Shown here: positions 32,888 through 49,001 of the stretch, one piece after another
Layout: the number at the start of each line of letters is the position of its first letter
How positions within the stretch are numbered: the first letter of the stretch is position 1
DNA from: Chloracidobacterium sp. N
GTDB taxonomy: Bacteria; Acidobacteriota; Blastocatellia; Chloracidobacteriales; Chloracidobacteriaceae
Direction: 5' to 3'
DNA length: 64,000 nt
Assembly (NCBI RefSeq): GCF_018304765.1
Contig: NZ_CP072642.1
Location: forward strand, 169,501 to 233,500
The notes under the pieces: model-generated
The model's database searches: none
What the model was told of the DNA's origin: nothing
Seen by the model: only the letters and a program-made list of their open reading frames with translations
Position numbers and translations under genes: made by a program

Positions 32888-33050
32888 GCGGGCGGGATTG
32901 GAGGTGTCACGTTCCCATCCTGAAACGGTAACGGGGCAGTGGGGCCACGTCCGTGCACATAATCCGATTGCCCGGTCTTGTCAACAGACGGGCGGCGGGA
33001 GCAAAGCCGTCTGGAAAAGGATTCGTTGAACCGCCCGCGTGCCGTCAACC

Positions 33051-33452
33051 TCACGGCTGGACGTTCTGCAGCCAGGTCGGAATGGCCTCCAGCATTTCGT
33101 CGCGCACGCGGCGAAAGTCAGCCAGATCGTCCGTTTGGGCCGGATCAAAGAAGCTGTGGTGCCGTTTCCGCCCCGTCCCCAGCCATACCGGACAGTCCTC
33201 GGCGGCCGCGTCACAGACGGTCACGACCAGATCAAAGTCCTGATCCTGAAGTTCATCGGCATGCTTGGAGCGCCCCGCGTGCCGGATACCGATTTCTTCC
33301 AGCACGGCCAAGGCTTTGGGGTGCACGTAGCCGGCAGGCCGGGTGCCGGCGCTGAACGCCTGCCACTCACCGGCATACCGGGCATTGACGATGGCTTCCG
33401 CCATCTGCGAGCGGCAGGAGTTACCGGTACACAAAAACAGCACCTTCTTCAT
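33051..33452 (-). CDS. arsC: Arsenate reductase, low-molecular-weight phosphatase type
   Basis: This 133-aa protein has the P-loop CTGNSCRSQ (Cys8), an internal VVTVCDAAAEDCP region with the second and third redox cysteines, and FFDPAQ near the end with the catalytic Asp. That is the thioredoxin-coupled ArsC pattern, which reduces arsenate to arsenite. No arsB, acr3 or arsR is nearby, so it may simply be a resistance housekeeping gene. It lies between the polyprenyl synthase gene and hslU on the same strand, with a 31-bp upstream gap. Confidence 0.9.
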   Translation of the reverse strand: MKKVLFLCTGNSCRSQMAEAIVNARYAGEWQAFSAGTRPAGYVHPKALAVLEEIGIRHAGRSKHADELQDQDFDLVVTVCDAAAEDCPVWLGTGRKRHHSFFDPAQTDDLADFRRVRDEMLEAIPTWLQNVQP

Positions 33453-33483
33453 GCGGTTGTCCCCCGGCTGTCAGTGCCGTGCG

Positions 33484-34539
33484 TCAGTGTCGCCGTTGCA
33501 GCATAAAGTCAGCGTACATGTCAAGCAGCTTCCGGTGCGGCCCGGCCGGCAGGACGGACAGGTGCTGCCTGGCGTCCACCAGGTAACGGATGGCGAGGTC
33601 ACGGGCAAAGGCAATCGAGCCGGTTTCCTCGAGCAGGGCAATGGCTTCGGGCAGCTCTCCATTGAGATCGCGTTTGCCCAGCAACTCCAGGAAGCGACGG
33701 CGGGCCGCGGGTGATGCATGCTGGAGAAAGTGAATGACGATGAGGGTCTTTTTGCCCTCACGGATGTCGAGTCCGAGCGGCTTGCCGAGGCGCAGCGGGT
33801 CGGCCTGCAGGTCGAGCACATCATCCCAGATTTGAAAGGCTGTGCCGATGTTCTCCCCGAAGGTCGCCATGGCCTGCAGGTCGGCTTCGTCGGCGTCGGC
33901 TGTCAGCATCCCGAAGATGCAGCTTGCCCGGTACAGCGCCGAGGTCTTGCGGGCGGCCATGCGCAGGTAGTCTTCAATGGTCAAATCCGGGCGGCGCTCA
34001 AAGTAGAGGTCATCGAACTGCCCGTAGCACATCTGTTTGGCGGTTTGGCCTAGGATGTGCACCATCCGCAGGGCATGGTGGCGGATGCGGGAAGCCTGCT
34101 CGACGGCTTTGGCATAGAGCAGGTCGCCGACCAGCAGGGAAAGATTCAGCCCGAAGCGGGTGTGGAGCGTGGGGCGGCCGTGCCGTTCGGGGCTGCCATC
34201 CATCATGTCGTCGTGGATGAGCGAGAGATTGTGCAGGTACTCCACGGCCAGCGCCGGTGGCAGGGCTTCTTCCAGCGTGCCGCCCGCGGCCTCGGCCGTG
34301 GTGATGACCAGAAACGGACGGAGCCGTTTGCCCTTGCCGTCAAAGAGGTGCATGACCGCCTGCCGGAGTTCCGGCTGCGTGACTTCGCTCAAGTCCTCGG
34401 CTATTGCCGTCTCGACGAGGTGGGCAACCGTCTGAATCCGCTCGACAAGCGGTGTGAAGGACAGCGGCAGGGAAAGACTGGGCGGTACGATGGACAATCC
34501 ATTGGTGGTCGGCACCGCGTTGGCGGGCACATGTGTCAT
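33484..34539 (-). CDS. Polyprenyl (geranylgeranyl-type) diphosphate synthase
   Basis: This trans-isoprenyl diphosphate synthase condenses IPP onto allylic diphosphates. The 351-aa product has the first Asp-rich motif HDDMMD (D110-D114), the second, WDDVLD (D239-D243), and GKRLRP (69-74) for IPP binding. GGPP here would feed bacteriochlorophyll tails (the BchP substrate) and carotenoids; longer products would serve quinones. Product length cannot be decided from sequence. Its ATG overlaps the stop of the small TPR gene upstream (4 bp), so the two are translationally coupled. Confidence 0.85.
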   Translation of the reverse strand: MTHVPANAVPTTNGLSIVPPSLSLPLSFTPLVERIQTVAHLVETAIAEDLSEVTQPELRQAVMHLFDGKGKRLRPFLVITTAEAAGGTLEEALPPALAVEYLHNLSLIHDDMMDGSPERHGRPTLHTRFGLNLSLLVGDLLYAKAVEQASRIRHHALRMVHILGQTAKQMCYGQFDDLYFERRPDLTIEDYLRMAARKTSALYRASCIFGMLTADADEADLQAMATFGENIGTAFQIWDDVLDLQADPLRLGKPLGLDIREGKKTLIVIHFLQHASPAARRRFLELLGKRDLNGELPEAIALLEETGSIAFARDLAIRYLVDARQHLSVLPAGPHRKLLDMYADFMLQRRH

Positions 34540-35096
34540 GATGGGCGTCTCCCGACAGAAATTCGACTGGGACGCTCACCCGCCGGGAGGCTGGGCGGGA
34601 GGGGGTGGGCGTCATCTGAAACCTTGGGCGATACGTTCAGGTCGGCCAGGCGCCGTTCGAGCCGTTGCCGCTCAAACGAGCCCACTTCCGGGAAATCCCG
34701 CAGATAGGCGTGGTAAGCCCGGTGGGCGCCGTGCCGGTCGCCGGCATATTCCAGCGCGCGTCCCAGCCAGGCAGCGGCCGAGCGGCGCAGCTCGCGGTCT
34801 TCCGCGGCGCTGGCAACCCGTTGAAAGTGCTGGGCGGCCTCGGCATAGGCGCGCTGGCGGATGCACAGCTCGCCCAGGGCCTGAACGTCCTGCCAGTCGG
34901 TGTCGTCCCCGGCCGTCGCCTGGCGGAGTTCCTGCGTGAGCACCGCAACGGCCTGGTCTTCAGCGGCCAGCCGGGCCTGCCAGAAACGACGGACCACCCA
35001 CGGCCCAATCCGCTGGGCCACCCACCAGGTGAAACGCGGGTAGCGCAGGGCAATGCGCGTGATGACCGTCACGGCTCGCATCTTGAGAGTTGTCAT
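34536..35096 (-). CDS. Small TPR-like helical repeat protein
   Basis: The 186-aa protein starts with an amphipathic, tryptophan-rich helix (YPRFTWWVAQRIGPWVVRRFW) that may associate with membrane. Two or three TPR-like repeats follow (VQALGELCIRQRAYAEAAQHFQRV; SAAAWLGRALEYAGDRHGAHRAY). It has a disordered Pro/Arg tail. I do not recognise a specific family. It overlaps the polyprenyl synthase gene by 4 bp and has a plausible own promoter upstream, so it leads the minus-strand run. Confidence 0.65.
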   Translation of the reverse strand: MTTLKMRAVTVITRIALRYPRFTWWVAQRIGPWVVRRFWQARLAAEDQAVAVLTQELRQATAGDDTDWQDVQALGELCIRQRAYAEAAQHFQRVASAAEDRELRRSAAAWLGRALEYAGDRHGAHRAYHAYLRDFPEVGSFERQRLERRLADLNVSPKVSDDAHPLPPSLPAGERPSRISVGRRPS

Positions 35097-35143
35097 GAGA
35101 GTGCCTTCTTGTACGCTGGCGATGCGGGAACGTGTCGCGCCAT

Positions 35144-35171
35144 CCTATATGAAGCCGGCTGGATGTACCAA
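35144..35171 (-). promoter_or_regulatory. Candidate promoter of the TPR/polyprenyl-synthase operon
   Basis: On the minus strand TTGGTA (35166-35171) and TATAGG (35144-35149) are separated by 16 bp and lie about 48 bp before the start codon. The rest of the divergent 606-bp gap 35097-35702 holds the CarH-like gene's control region and a GACGC/GCGTC inverted repeat near 35309-35336. I see no RNA gene. Confidence 0.4.
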
Positions 35172-35611
35172 GCCAGCCAAGGCCACCGGGCGCCGCTTCG
35201 TGGGTTGCTGACCGGGGACTGCCCGGCGGTCGGACTCAAACGGAAGGCCGAGGGGGCGTGCACCCATCCTCGGCCCGGCTCGTGTCGGTTGTCCCGACTC
35301 CCTAAGTTTTGACGCGCAGCGCAACCCCCCAAGCGTCAAGAGACTTGAAAACTCCCCCCGGAGTCGTCGTTCCAAGCCTCCAAACAAGAGCGATGCGCGC
35401 CAAGCCCGCAAATACCTTTGAGCGCCGGGCCGTGTCACCGTTGCACGGCAGTGTTTGGGTCGCTCACAGACGGAAGAATATGGAAAACGCCCAAAGCGGT
35501 CAAGTCAATTTGTAAAACTTTTTCCGGGCGGGATGTGTCCGGTCCGGGGTGTTTGGTTCAAATGGCATATAAATCAAGATTTTGTGGGCTTGGCGGGAAA
35601 GTTGGGACAGC

Positions 35612-35640
35612 TTGACCAAATGCCTTGCGCGGCGTAGAGT
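35612..35640 (+). promoter_or_regulatory. Promoter of the CarH-like regulator
   Basis: TTGACC (35612-35617), a 17-bp spacer and TAGAGT (35635-35640) are present. The -10 is identical to that proposed for rpsA. Predicted transcription starts just before the tandem AAACGTTCA repeats. Confidence 0.5.
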
Positions 35641-35658
35641 AGGCGCGTTCCCGATTGG

Positions 35659-35676
35659 AAACGTTCAAAACGTTCA
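35659..35676 (+). promoter_or_regulatory. Tandem 9-bp repeats, candidate operator
   Basis: AAACGTTCA occurs twice head-to-tail (35659-35667 and 35668-35676), with a related CGTTCAAAAC at 35709-35718. CarA/CarH/LitR repressors bind short direct repeats overlapping or following their own promoters, so an autoregulatory operator is likely. Binding is inferred from position and pattern only. Confidence 0.5.
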
Positions 35677-35702
35677 CTCTTGTCGGAATTGGGAAACCCG
35701 GC

Positions 35703-36665
35703 GTGCCGCGTTCAAAACACACCATCCAGCCTGTCACCACCGCACAACAGACCTATTCCACCGCCGAGGTGGCCCGGATGTGGGCCGTCAGTGAGTCCTC
35801 GGTCAAGCGGTGGAGCGACAGCGGCGTCCTGGCCTGCATTCGGACGCCGGGCGGACACCGGCGCTTTACGCCGCAGGCGTTGCTGGATTTTCAGCGGGCC
35901 GGTGGTGTGCTGCGGCACGGCGGGCAGTCCGGGTCCGGCGCCGTGTCGGTGGTGTCCGATGAAGCGGCGGCGGTCACGGCGTCGCTGGATCAGGCGTTGG
36001 CGGCGCGCGACTGGGCGGTGCTTCAGGCGCAGTACTACGAAGCGGCCGTGGCGGGCGATGAGCTGGCCGGTGTGGCGGTGCTGGAGCGGGCCTACCGGAG
36101 CGGGATACCGGTGGTGGCGTTGAAGGAGCACGTGTTGACGCCGGTGCTGCACCTGATTGGCGAGCGGTGGCGGCGGGGTGAACTCAACATCTGGGAAGAG
36201 CACCTGGCGTCGCAGGTGACACTGGCGGTGACCGAGCATCTGCACCGGCAACTGCCGCGTGCGCCGTTCAACGGGCGGCTGGCGCTGTGCGGCTGCCCGG
36301 AGGGCGACCTGCACGGAATTGCGCTGCATCTGGTTATGGAAGTGCTGGAAGTGGAAGGGTGGCGGGTGCTGTCGCTCGGGCCGAACACGCCGTTGTTTTC
36401 GTTTGCCGATGCCGTCCGGCGGTTTTCACCCCAACTCGTGTGTATTTCGGCGACGATTGTGCACGATCTGGAGCGGCTGCGGCGCGACTACGGAGACTTT
36501 TACCATACGGTGCGGCAGCACGGGGCGCGGATTGTCATTGGCGGCGCGGCGTTTGCCGATCCGCAGGTGCGGGAAATTTTCATTCACGACTACCGGGCGG
36601 CAGGACTGACGGATTTTCTTGACTACCTGCGGCGTGAATTCCCCGCACCGGCGGTCGCCACCTGA
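35703..36665 (+). CDS. CarH-like B12-binding photoreceptor / MerR-type repressor
   Basis: The 320-aa product (GTG start) joins a MerR-type winged helix (residues 18-65: STAEVARMWAVSESSVKRW and GGHRRF) to a helical bundle and a Rossmann B12 domain. The bundle carries the CarH signature W-x9-EH (Trp156, Glu166, His167; HLASQV). The B12 domain has D-x-H (Asp202, His204, in EGDLHG), the lower axial ligand. In CarH, adenosylcobalamin drives tetramerisation and DNA binding in the dark, and light breaks the Co-C bond and releases DNA, switching on carotenoid or other photoprotective genes. An upstream TTG at 35655 would place the candidate operator inside the gene, so I prefer 35703. A B12-synthesis gene (cobS) is in the same window. 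Confidence 0.8.
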   Translation: MPRSKHTIQPVTTAQQTYSTAEVARMWAVSESSVKRWSDSGVLACIRTPGGHRRFTPQALLDFQRAGGVLRHGGQSGSGAVSVVSDEAAAVTASLDQALAARDWAVLQAQYYEAAVAGDELAGVAVLERAYRSGIPVVALKEHVLTPVLHLIGERWRRGELNIWEEHLASQVTLAVTEHLHRQLPRAPFNGRLALCGCPEGDLHGIALHLVMEVLEVEGWRVLSLGPNTPLFSFADAVRRFSPQLVCISATIVHDLERLRRDYGDFYHTVRQHGARIVIGGAAFADPQVREIFIHDYRAAGLTDFLDYLRREFPAPAVAT

Positions 36666-36727
36666 CCAAGCCGTACGCCAAGCCGTGCGGGTTGCTCACG
36701 TGCCAGCGTCTCATGCCGGCGCCCTTC

Positions 36728-36778
36728 CAGTTGCAATCCCCGGCCAGTTGCAATCCCCGGCCAGTTGCAATCCCCGGC
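36728..36778 (+). repeat. Three perfect tandem 17-bp repeats
   Basis: CAGTTGCAATCCCCGGC occurs three times in exact tandem at 36728-36744, 36745-36761 and 36762-36778. It lies in the 245-bp gap between the CarH-like gene and the TPR gene. A copy number of three with no mismatch suggests recent expansion. No other element is evident in the gap. Confidence 0.95.
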
Positions 36779-36910
36779 GGGCGGCTGCTGGTGGTCCCGC
36801 CCGTGCGGGCCGGGCAGAATATCCAGCCGAAGACTGCCTGCCATCATTCCCATGTGGCGGCAAGTCGGTTAGATTTACAGACTGCAACTGCGCCTCGCCG
36901 GAGGCGTACG

Positions 36911-39019
36911 ATGAGTCATAGGCTTCTCCCTGCGCACTTCTGGAGTTTCACCGCCATGCCAGCTTCACGCCTTGCCCTACTGCTTTCAGGCTGCTGCCTC
37001 ACGGTCGGTTCCCTTGCGGCCCCGGCGTTTTCCCAACAATCACCCAAGCCACGGGTCGAGAAGCCCCAGCCCGCCGCCCCGGCCCCAGCCGCCGCCCCGG
37101 CCCCAGCCGCCGCCCCGGCGCCGGCCAGAGTGTCCCGTGAGCAGCGCATCCAGGCCTACGAAAAGTTCCTTCAGGCACGGCGCTACATTGCCCAGGCCGA
37201 CCCGCTCAACGCCATCACCGCCTTCAAGGAAGTGCTGGCGCTTGACCCCACGGCCGCCACGGCACACGTCGAGTTGGGCAATCTGTACCTGGAAGGACGC
37301 AACCTGCGGGATGCCGAATATCACGCCCGCCAGGCCGTGGCGCTCGACCCCGAAGATGCCATGGCCCACTGGCTGCTCGGACGGGTGCTCTTTCTCCAGT
37401 CCAGCGGCGCGGCACTCAACCGCGAAAAAGCCCGCGAAGCCGTTGCCGCCTTTGAAACCGTTGCCAAACTGGACGCCCTCAATCTCGATGTGTACCGGTT
37501 GCTTGGCCGGCTCTACCGCGATTTGAACGATACCGAAAATGCCCTCTCCGCCTACGCCAAACTCATTGGTGCCAATCAGGGCGGACCCGAAGAGTTCGCC
37601 GCCGCCACCGAGCTGTACTTCCGCAAGCGGCGCTACCGGGACGCCGCCAACACCGCCCGCCAGGCCTATGCCCTGAGCGGCGAAAACCCCCAGTGGGGCT
37701 ACCAGCTTTCACAGGCCCTGCTGTACGCCGGCCAAACCGCCGAGGCCATTGACGTTCTCAAGGAACTGCTCGAAGAAAACGGCAACAACCTGCGGCTCAT
37801 CCTCAGTTACGCCGAAGCCCTCATGCGCGGCGGACGCTACCCTGAAGCCGAGCAGCAGGTCCAGCGCGTCCTCTCCGAACGCCCCAACCATCCCGAAGCC
37901 CTCTCCATTCTGGCCCAGGTGCAACGGCGCAGCGGCCGGCGCGAAGAGGCCGTCAAAACCCTCCGCCAGGCGCTGGCCGGACAGGACGTGACCGAAACGC
38001 TCGCCCAGCAGTATGCCCTGGCTGAAACCCTCGTGGAGCTGGGGCGGACTGAAGAAGCCGTGGCGGCCTATGAAGCGGCCCTGCGCAGCGTCTCCAATCC
38101 TGACAACTCCGTGAGCGAAAGCCAGCGGGAGCGCGCGGAACTGATCCTGATGCGCATGGCCAGCGCCTACAAGGCTGCCGGAAAACTCGATCAGGAACTG
38201 GCGACCTACGACCGTATGCGCCGTCTGCTCGGCAGTGAAAGCACCTTGGCCGACCTGCTGCTCATCGAGTCGCTGCGTAGTGAAGGGAAGCACGAAGAAG
38301 CCCTCAAGTCCGCACGCGCCGCCCGGCAGCGCTTTCCCAACGAGCGCCAGTTCGTGTACCTCGAAGCCCAGGTGCTGGCCCGCCTGGGACAGGTTGACCA
38401 GGCCCTGAAAGAGTTGTCCAGGGTTGCCGAAGAGGCCGACGACGCCGGCGAAGTCGCCCAGATGAAAGCCATCGTGCTCAGCGACGCCAACCGCTTCGAG
38501 GATGCCGAACGCCTGGCGCGCCAGGCCGTGCGCTACGACGAGAAAAACATCGCTTACCTTGTCACCCTCAGCTCCATTCTCGAACGCCGCAAGCAGTATG
38601 CCGAATCTGAGCAACTGCTGCGCACCGCGCTGGCGCTCGACCCGGACAACCCCACCGCCCTCAACAACCTGGGCTACTTCCTCGCCGAGCGTAACGAGCG
38701 CCTCGATGAGGCCCTGACCCTTGTCCAGCGGGCAGTCAACATCGAGCCGACGAACAGCTCCTTTCTCGACAGCCTCGGCTGGGTCTATTTCAAACAAAAC
38801 CGCCTCGATCTGGCCCGGCAGTACATCGAGCAGGCCCTCAGCTACGACCGGCGCAACGCCACCCTCAACGACCACCTGGGCGACGTACTGGAGCGCCTGG
38901 GCGATCTGGAAGGCGCCCGGCGGCACTGGAAAATTGCCCGGAGCCTGGCCACGGACCCGGAGGACATCAACCGGATCGACGCCAAACTGCAACGCGGACA
39001 AACGGCTGAAACCCAGTAA
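36911..39019 (+). CDS. Exported tetratricopeptide-repeat (TPR) protein
   Basis: The 702-aa product has a signal or lipoprotein-like N-terminus (LALLLSGCCLTVGSLAAPAFS), an Ala/Pro linker encoded by 18-bp repeats near 37075-37125, then about 14 TPR units. Clear examples are AITAFKEVLALDPTAATAHVELGNLYLEG and, at the end, NPTALNNLGYFLAERNERLDEAL with SFLDSLGWVYFKQNRLDLARQYIEQAL. Such proteins are periplasmic or outer-membrane-associated scaffolds. ATG 36911 is preferred because GGAGG lies 8 bp upstream; ATG 36956 is an alternative. A start at 36692 would translate the 17-bp repeats and is rejected. The next gene starts 38 bp downstream. Confidence 0.8.
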   Translation: MSHRLLPAHFWSFTAMPASRLALLLSGCCLTVGSLAAPAFSQQSPKPRVEKPQPAAPAPAAAPAPAAAPAPARVSREQRIQAYEKFLQARRYIAQADPLNAITAFKEVLALDPTAATAHVELGNLYLEGRNLRDAEYHARQAVALDPEDAMAHWLLGRVLFLQSSGAALNREKAREAVAAFETVAKLDALNLDVYRLLGRLYRDLNDTENALSAYAKLIGANQGGPEEFAAATELYFRKRRYRDAANTARQAYALSGENPQWGYQLSQALLYAGQTAEAIDVLKELLEENGNNLRLILSYAEALMRGGRYPEAEQQVQRVLSERPNHPEALSILAQVQRRSGRREEAVKTLRQALAGQDVTETLAQQYALAETLVELGRTEEAVAAYEAALRSVSNPDNSVSESQRERAELILMRMASAYKAAGKLDQELATYDRMRRLLGSESTLADLLLIESLRSEGKHEEALKSARAARQRFPNERQFVYLEAQVLARLGQVDQALKELSRVAEEADDAGEVAQMKAIVLSDANRFEDAERLARQAVRYDEKNIAYLVTLSSILERRKQYAESEQLLRTALALDPDNPTALNNLGYFLAERNERLDEALTLVQRAVNIEPTNSSFLDSLGWVYFKQNRLDLARQYIEQALSYDRRNATLNDHLGDVLERLGDLEGARRHWKIARSLATDPEDINRIDAKLQRGQTAETQ

Positions 39020-48255: not shown

Positions 48256-49001
48256 CCGTCCTGCGGCTGTTTCTGGCAGCGGTGGCGTTCCTGACGCGCC
48301 TGCCGATACCGGCCTGGGCGCACCCGGACGGCCGGACACTGGCGGCTGCCATGGTGTTTTTCCCGCTGGTCGGGGCGCTGCTGGGCGCGGGGCAGGCGGC
48401 ACTCATTCTCGTGCTGCACCCGGTGCTTGCGCCGGATGCGCTGGCCCTGCTGCTCATTGCCACGACGGTACTCGTCACCGGGGCATTGCACTACGACGGG
48501 CTGGCCGACACGGTGGACGCGCTGGGCGGCGGCTGGTCGCCAGAGCAGCGGCTGGCCATCATGAAGGACCCGCACATCGGGACGTTCGGCGTGCTGGCGC
48601 TGGTGGTGGCCGTTCTGGCCCAGTTTGTGGCGCTACGGAGTTTTCAGCACGTGGAGTCGCTGTGCCGGGCGGTGATGGTTGCGCCATGTCTGGCCCGGAT
48701 GACGATTGTCTGGCTGGCGTGGCAGGAGCCTTATGCGCGGGCTGAAGGTGGCAAGGGACGCTTCATCGAGGCGCTCCAGGGGCGGCATGTGTTGGGGGCG
48801 CTGCTGACCGGCGGGGCAATCGTGCTCGGCGTGGGCGGCTGGTTGGGCAGTCTGCTGTTGGCGTTGGCGGCGGTACTCGTCATGATGGCGGCCTTTCGTT
48901 TTCGGCGCTGGCTGGGTGGGATTACCGGCGATGCGCTGGGTGCGGTCTGTCAGACGTGTGAACTTCTGGTCTATGGCGTGTGGGTTGCATTTCGGCCGTG
49001 A
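48252..49001 (+). CDS. cobS: Adenosylcobinamide-GDP ribazoletransferase (cobalamin synthase)
   Basis: CobS joins adenosylcobinamide-GDP and alpha-ribazole in the last steps of cobalamin assembly; it is an integral membrane enzyme. The 249-aa product has several hydrophobic helices and the family motif TGALHYDGLADTVDALGGG near residue 76, plus MKDPHIGTFGVLAL. GTG 48252 overlaps the mutS2 stop (GTGA). No other cob genes are adjacent. Adenosylcobalamin would serve the CarH-like regulator at 35.7 kb and B12-dependent enzymes. Confidence 0.92.
   Translation: MTVLRLFLAAVAFLTRLPIPAWAHPDGRTLAAAMVFFPLVGALLGAGQAALILVLHPVLAPDALALLLIATTVLVTGALHYDGLADTVDALGGGWSPEQRLAIMKDPHIGTFGVLALVVAVLAQFVALRSFQHVESLCRAVMVAPCLARMTIVWLAWQEPYARAEGGKGRFIEALQGRHVLGALLTGGAIVLGVGGWLGSLLLALAAVLVMMAAFRFRRWLGGITGDALGAVCQTCELLVYGVWVAFRP

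Follow-up and report, generated by a model that had tools for sequence, protein, structure and literature searches.

A BldC-like B12 photoreceptor of Chloracidobacterium with predicted 9-bp operators at its own promoter and at a divergent promoter preceding a conserved structured RNA

Light-dependent regulators of the CarH/LitR type are commonly accompanied by carotenoid, photolyase, and folE genes. The CarH proteins of Thermus, Bacillus, and Myxococcales join a MerR-type helix-turn-helix (HTH) domain to a helical bundle and a cobalamin domain bearing the W-x9-EH and DxH motifs, and their operators are composed of 11-bp nnnnTnnACAn repeats (PMC9304148). A different operator architecture is found with BldC of Streptomyces, the protomers of which each sit on one 9-bp direct repeat, AATTXXXX(C), in a head-to-tail arrangement, with Arg30 reading a C-G pair (PMC5859096). 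The closest characterised relative of the protein considered here is CtMerR (WP_157850694; PDB 8JBS and 8JBT), described in the SignatureFinder paper. Its cobalamin domain binds adenosylcobalamin (AdoCbl), responds to 530 nm green light, is photolysed, and passes from tetramer to monomer upon illumination; the domain was crystallised in the dark and after anaerobic light, and, unlike in CarH, no bis-His light state was seen in CtMerR under anaerobic light (PMC11796333). The DNA-binding domain of CtMerR is divergent, with 25% identity to TtCarH, and ‘an alternative DNA-binding site’ was proposed; the word ‘operator’ is absent from the main text of that paper, and its sections 8-14 report no target gene or RNA (PMC11796333).

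The stretch of DNA analysed here, referred to as the window, spans 64,000 nucleotides (positions 169501-233500 of contig 1 of a two-contig, 3.7-Mb genome of the genus Chloracidobacterium) and encodes a regulator of this kind (Table 1). Its domains HTH_17, MerR_1, B12-binding_2, and B12-binding score above the Pfam cut-offs. An in-frame TTG at 35655 sits at a repeat discussed below; the N-terminus MPRSK, or one similar to it, is found in the solved homologue and in most members of the genus. The only strong match of the regulator in its own genome is itself (next best E 0.03 or worse). At E 1e-20 or better, the regulator was found in all ten genomes of the family—the own genome and nine others, G001-G009, hereafter the family genomes—and in 1 of the 48 other relatives searched. 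One genome of another family, G056, carries a homologue that is 30% identical, with neither the prenyl synthase gene nor the RNA described below in the 15 kb around it. Three head-to-tail copies of ccagttgcaatccccgg (36727-36777) lie in the interval that separates the regulator gene from the TPR gene following it. A cobS gene lies in the same window at 48279-48974 (+), as had been pointed out before.

Table 1. Features of the regulator locus; positions are counted within the window.
Feature	Position	Strand	Details and basis
Polyprenyl diphosphate synthase gene	33484-34539	-	beside regulator in 10/10 family genomes
TPR protein gene	34536-35096	-	weak TPR matches below cut-off; adjoins RNA in 8/10 family genomes
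Promoter-like TTGGTA-18-TAGGAT ahead of TPR and prenyl synthase genes	35142-35171	-	sequence; TAGGATG in 10/10 family genomes
GC-rich hairpin past RNA core, then TTCCGTTT; candidate terminator	35246-35275	-	sequence
Conserved structured RNA core: P1 closing stem, P2, P3, G-rich strand	35295-35408	-	comparison of 10 genomes
Divergent promoter-like TTGACC-17-TATTCT	35475-35503	-	sequence; family comparison
Predicted operator site 1, AAAACGCCC AAAGCGGTC	35484-35501	+	like site in 10/10 family genomes
Regulator promoter-like TTGACC-17-TAGAGT	35612-35640	+	sequence; equivalent in 8/10 family genomes
Predicted operator site 2, GAAACGTTC AAAACGTTC, 9-bp units	35658-35675	+	17 nt past -10 of regulator promoter
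CtMerR-type B12 photoreceptor/putative repressor gene	35703-36665	+	320 aa, GTG start; PDB 8JBS/8JBT and Pfam matches
BldC-like winged HTH, residues 18-66	35754-35900	+	R36 at presumed BldC Arg30 place
Cobalamin-binding domain	36024-36566	+	helical bundle with W156/E166/H167; Rossmann part with H204

The sensor half of the protein is readily assigned. The residues W156-x9-E166-H167 and D202-x-H204, named in part by the original prediction, are present and align with 8JBS; W156, E166, H167, and H204 are invariant across 11 aligned homologues, and the signature residues described in CtMerR—Trp156, Glu166, His167, and His204—are the same ones with the same numbering (PMC11796333). In a phmmer search of the PDB, 8JBS/8JBT (“CtMerR”) is matched at E 3.2e-207, with 13 differences over 320 residues, i.e., about 96% identity as counted by eye in the alignment. 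One difference lies directly beside the ligand His204: residue 205 (36315-36317) is Gly in the window protein, Glu in 8JBS and in 9 of the 10 other aligned sequences, and Gln in the remaining one, and Gly205 may alter the cobalamin pocket. The photoreceptor itself is therefore not new, a near-identical protein having already been characterised, and AdoCbl binding, photolysis, and the tetramer-to-monomer transition, as established for the cobalamin domain of that protein, would be expected here by analogy.

The DNA-binding half, by comparison of sequences, is BldC-like and not of the CarH type. Pairwise comparison of the HTH domain yields 34.0 bits with BldC and 17.7 bits with TtCarH, and a profile of 16 sequences yields 54.3 bits with BldC and 19.3 with CarH. 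The NCBIfam models for the CarH equivalog (NF052513; 74.7 bits, cut-off 400) and for BldC (NF033787; 49.2 bits, cut-off 77) are both matched below their cut-offs. Arg36 is invariant in 11/11 homologues; from the offset in the HTH alignment and the BldC numbering, we take this residue to be the equivalent of BldC Arg30. A repeat at lag 9 (8/9 or better) is found upstream of the regulator in 10/10 family genomes, as opposed to 0/10 for lag 11; the expected counts for these lags come from mononucleotide shuffles, for which the matrix scans of distant loci described below provide better controls. The protein thus shares with CarH the overall domain arrangement, the W-x9-EH and DxH motifs, the dark tetramer and light monomer of near-identical CtMerR, and a predicted operator on a promoter; it differs from CarH in its BldC-like DNA-binding domain and in 9-bp repeats of the type AAnnCGnnC instead of 11-bp repeats. 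With BldC, it shares the HTH sequence, the presumed Arg30 equivalent, and what appear to be direct repeats of 9 bp that begin A/T-rich and carry C at position 9 (PMC5859096); the BldC site AATTCGGTC compares with AAATCGGTC in G004, G007, G008, and G009. Unlike BldC, which consists of 68 residues devoid of a sensor domain, the window protein has one attached. Of the initial assignment as a B12-dependent CarH-like light sensor, the sensor residues and the behaviour of near-identical CtMerR bear out the B12-dependent light sensor, whereas a CarH-type DNA-binding half is not supported, the repeat being of 9 bp and not of the 11-bp TnnACA type.

A tandem repeat downstream of a sigma-70-like promoter, claimed in the original prediction, is indeed present with a period of 9 (site 2, Table 1). 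Scoring against the sigma-70 consensus, which is assumed for this organism, returns two promoter-like sites in 35100-37000 as compared with a mean of 0.2 in shuffles. The 18-mer of site 2, AAACGTTCAAAACGTTCA, occurs exactly only once in the genome, and a similar repeat lies at the same place in 10/10 family genomes. In the eight of these with a clear regulator promoter, site 2 starts 6-21 nt past the -10; the promoter equivalent is not clear in G007 and G009, where site 2 is weak as well (3 and 2 mismatches to the pattern, respectively). Of the divergent -35 element, 4 of 6 bases fall within site 1, as do 14 of the 17 bases of the spacer. The counterparts of site 1 in the ten genomes deviate at 0-2 positions from a pattern drawn from these same sites, and TTGACY-17/18-TAnnnT is found at a constant offset from them in every case. 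Identity to the window amounts to 17-19 of 20 positions at site 1 and 14-20 of 20 at site 2, and to 49-81% in the intervening DNA. In G007, three places lie within 3 mismatches of the pattern, and the two located at promoters were taken. Site 2 is likely, judging from this comparison, to be an operator of the regulator at its own promoter.

The divergent promoter at site 1 is followed, on the same strand, by a predicted structured RNA of ~110 nt. Column conservation within the genus peaks not at the operators but at ~35300-35405, where the alignment is almost invariant over 7 genomes. Twelve copies of the RNA were found in the ten genomes, two each in G002 and G003, where they are doubled in tandem (L027:9256-9562 and L029:8705-9027). 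Their predicted fold comprises a closing stem of 14 bp, a P2 of 12 bp, a P3 hairpin, and a conserved G-rich strand. Over all copies, 96.0% of cells are paired, and 7 of 36 pairs as well as 11 cells carry changes on both sides; 0/500 shuffles reach any of these three values. Versions with slid partners pair to 33-56%, the +2 slide still yielding 6 both-side-changed pairs; further pair types are not in excess (reached by 200/500 shuffles), and the covariation term of RNAalifold is small (-1.11). The alignment thus points to a modest covariation. Single-sequence z-scores for the RNA strand and the plus strand, respectively, are modest in the window (-2.53/-1.99) and stronger in G007 (-4.00/-4.84) and G008 (-4.25/-3.97), and do not separate the strands. 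A model of the RNA, built from the ten genomes that it later found and applied with stricter filters in the wide search, matches 10 of 162 genomes of the class, in each case at this locus only, and the same ten carry the family regulator. In 61 distant regulator loci, the model gave one match, which is not credible (E 0.45).

Several identities were considered for this RNA. Rfam 15 covariance models gave no match up to E 1 in 33000-37000, and tRNA and tmRNA were not found in 34900-35800. A closing stem with an internal bubble is also the shape of 6S RNA, which is likewise small and structured; this identity was rejected, as 6S RNA is matched at another place in the genome (C1:2332814-2332991; 50 bits, above the gathering score). 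A coding sequence at the core is disfavoured by indels of 1-2 nt between genomes and by the covarying stems. Location on the plus strand is disfavoured by the folding energy in the window (-28.2 vs -47.2 kcal/mol on the minus strand); moreover, a G-U pair that would be A-C on the plus strand is kept in 12/12 copies. An antisense target of the G-rich strand common to the family was not obtained: its exact complement of 11 nt occurs at 19 places in the ten genomes; in the own genome, G001, G002, G006, and G008 it is found in the RNA itself and nowhere else, G009 has none, and 8 other places lie in G003, G004, G005, and G007.

The reading that we consider probable is that of a repressor released by light from two operators, the divergent transcript being primarily a structured noncoding RNA. 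In the dark, AdoCbl-bound tetramers would occupy the 9-bp direct repeats head to tail through their BldC-like domains. At site 2, just past its own promoter, the regulator would limit its own synthesis; at site 1, it would block the divergent promoter. Green light would then cleave the Co-C bond, the tetramer would fall apart, and both promoters would open. What the divergent promoter yields would chiefly be a structured noncoding RNA, about 110-240 nt long; the TPR and prenyl synthase genes further downstream have a promoter-like element of their own. Comparison between genomes provides the repeats on promoters, the BldC-type domain together with the matching period, and the conserved, covarying RNA. 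DNA binding and repression by the regulator, as well as induction of the RNA by light, would be consequences of this arrangement; the RNA would constitute a separate species and might act in trans. The position of one predicted operator on the promoter of a conserved RNA suggests that the direct output of the light response is an RNA and not the pigment genes. The second operator, the divergent promoter, the RNA, and the characterised near-identical protein all go beyond the original prediction.

Alternatively, the RNA might be a cis-acting leader, akin to an attenuator or riboswitch, of the TPR-prenyl synthase operon, in which case the repressor would govern the supply of isoprenoids, in the way CarH does through crtE. 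The nearest solved relative of the prenyl synthase is geranylgeranyl pyrophosphate synthetase (1WY0, E 5.4e-74), and two PF00348 genes are present in each of 6 genomes searched. The constant position of the prenyl synthase gene beside the regulator speaks for a leader, since among the 12 other window genes tested, it alone has remained there in G007 and G009; the hairpin after the RNA core and the tandem doubling in G002 and G003, a feature that occurs in some riboswitches, point in the same direction. So does the consensus terminator scan, which made no call past the RNA in the window. T-tracts past the RNA are clear in G007 and G008 and poor or absent in several other family genomes; read-through into the TPR and prenyl synthase genes is therefore possible. 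On the other hand, the element TAGGATG stands between the RNA and the first gene, be it the TPR or the prenyl synthase gene, in 10/10 family genomes, and in G007 the closing stem runs directly into TTTTTTT. Based on these two features, a separate RNA is likelier than a leader, and the leader appears rather unlikely. A reading in which site 1 controls the prenyl synthase directly is likewise made less likely by the RNA and the separate TAGGATG element that lie in between.

Repeats of this kind are not confined to the family. A scan of genome contigs detected 66 homologue loci, of which 5 belong to this family and the 61 distant ones were analysed with a matrix built only from the 20 sites of this family. 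Within 250 nt upstream, a two-unit site on the strand of the gene was found at 35/61 distant loci at 1/100 dinucleotide shuffles or better, as opposed to 5/61 for the opposite strand; 26/61 have no site at that threshold. Sites of at least 12 bits are present at 31/61 loci, where the remaining sequence of those loci predicts 0.42, and at 3/61 on the opposite strand. Start codons were chosen mechanically at the distant loci and some were placed too far upstream, so that some sites may be hidden. Represented among the positive loci are Ignavibacteria/Bacteroidetes, Planctomycetota, Opitutales, Acidobacteria, and Deltaproteobacteria, and four repeat units are apparent by eye at several of them. 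The original prediction had made its case depend on the repeats recurring in related genomes, and they occur in 10/10 family genomes and many distant ones. A 9-bp operator type common to distant bacteria and unlike that of classic CarH is therefore likely, as far as comparison goes.

Site occurrence differs with the sensor residues. In an alignment of 58 of the 61 distant homologues (3 fragments under 150 aa were dropped), 33 of 46 that bear the W, E, and H residues have a site, as compared with 1 of 11 lacking W, EH, and the ligand His; the single partial case has none. Ten acidobacterial loci with the same kind of DNA-binding domain lack W, EH, and the ligand His (L128, L130-L132, L136, L139, L140, L148, L150, and L155), and an operator on the strand of the gene was found in 0/10 of these at 5/100 shuffles. 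In a further group, found in Planctomycetota, Opitutales, and others, W-x9-EH is kept and the ligand His is replaced by Tyr (18/58), Ser (3), or Thr (1); the 9-bp operator is present in 18 of these 22 regulators (L153, L154, L156, L157, L160-L166, L168-L173, L175-L177, L179, and L185). Operator-like matches also occur outside the regulator genes themselves. At L176:3870-4938, a gene with weak MerR/HTH_17 matches just below the cut-offs adjoins the homologue and has three such matches around its start. At L172:4340-4431, they lie before and at the start of a gene near the homologue that encodes 357 aa and has no Pfam family; this gene is possibly a further target of the regulator.

Under an ordinary CarH-like wiring, light would act directly on pigment or chlorosome genes by way of additional operators elsewhere in the genome; this reading draws on what surrounds the distant homologues. 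Out of 286 flanking ORFs, 30 were picked by hand, mostly by size, for Pfam analysis. In Ignavibacteria, distant homologues stand at the head of CrtI-CrtB-lycopene cyclase operons. At L134, genes for a CrtI-type protein, CrtB, and lycopene cyclase form one operon, and similar genes were recognised through sequence similarity at L137, L149, L159, and L183. Photolyase genes are found near the homologue at L133, L142, and L146, those for GTP cyclohydrolase I (folE) and phytoene synthase at L180, and those for NmrA/DUF2867 proteins at L153, L154, L165, and L169. Prolyl-tRNA synthetase, fasciclin, and E1-E2 ATPase are among the unrelated families in the other picked flanks, 6 of which have no family; with the choice made by hand, no rate of light-related neighbours can be given. 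Here, just the prenyl synthase gene is near, behind the RNA and its own promoter-like element. In support of such wiring, when up to 2 mismatches are allowed, the strict pattern is matched 32 times in the own genome, vs 14 for a reversed control. A looser pattern has exact places elsewhere among the ten genomes in G008 (1) and G007 (3) only; from these counts, additional weak sites elsewhere in the genome are possible. Without mismatch, however, the strict pattern, which was derived from these very sites, occurs only twice in the own genome, each time at this locus, which leaves direct control of pigment genes unsupported. Furthermore, FMO is present in 8/10 family genomes and absent from G007 and G009, which nevertheless keep the regulator, both sites (site 2 in weakened form), the RNA, and the prenyl synthase gene, and are without the TPR gene. 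A third gene of the phytoene-synthase type occurs in 4 of 6 genomes searched, G007 and G009 not being among them. The circuit is therefore not bound to chlorosome phototrophy. Given the strict motif and the FMO-less relatives, the direct light input to pigment genes considered plausible at the outset is not supported, and this wiring is very improbable. Just as little credence is due to the reading that the repeats are promoter or leader elements and that the protein binds elsewhere: AACGTT is itself a palindrome, but the 9-bp unit stands upstream of homologues from several phyla, on the same strand as the gene, has the spacing of BldC sites, and is hardly ever seen with homologues that have lost the sensor residues.

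What looks new, on present comparison, is the DNA side of the system, namely the BldC-like domain, the 9-bp operators, the divergent promoter, and the RNA. A narrow search of partial open-access literature found no CarH-type B12 photoreceptor linked to a small RNA and no B12 photoreceptor linked to BldC. On balance, we lean towards a B12 photoreceptor that switches on a dedicated structured small RNA in the light in a family that includes chlorophototrophs and FMO-less lineages, and towards a wider class of B12 sensors, present in several phyla, that combine BldC-type DNA-binding domains with a distinct 9-bp operator code; in one branch of this class the ligand His is replaced by Tyr. The sensor half of CtMerR is solved, and the proposed operator makes its DNA target testable. 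The resulting DNA-binding module would respond to green light, use 9-bp repeats, and differ from that of CarH. The operator would also make the regulon accessible in Ignavibacteria, Planctomycetota, and other groups, in which carotenoid, photolyase, and folE genes adjoin some of the homologues. If true, the arrangement would place an RNA layer under direct light control in this family.
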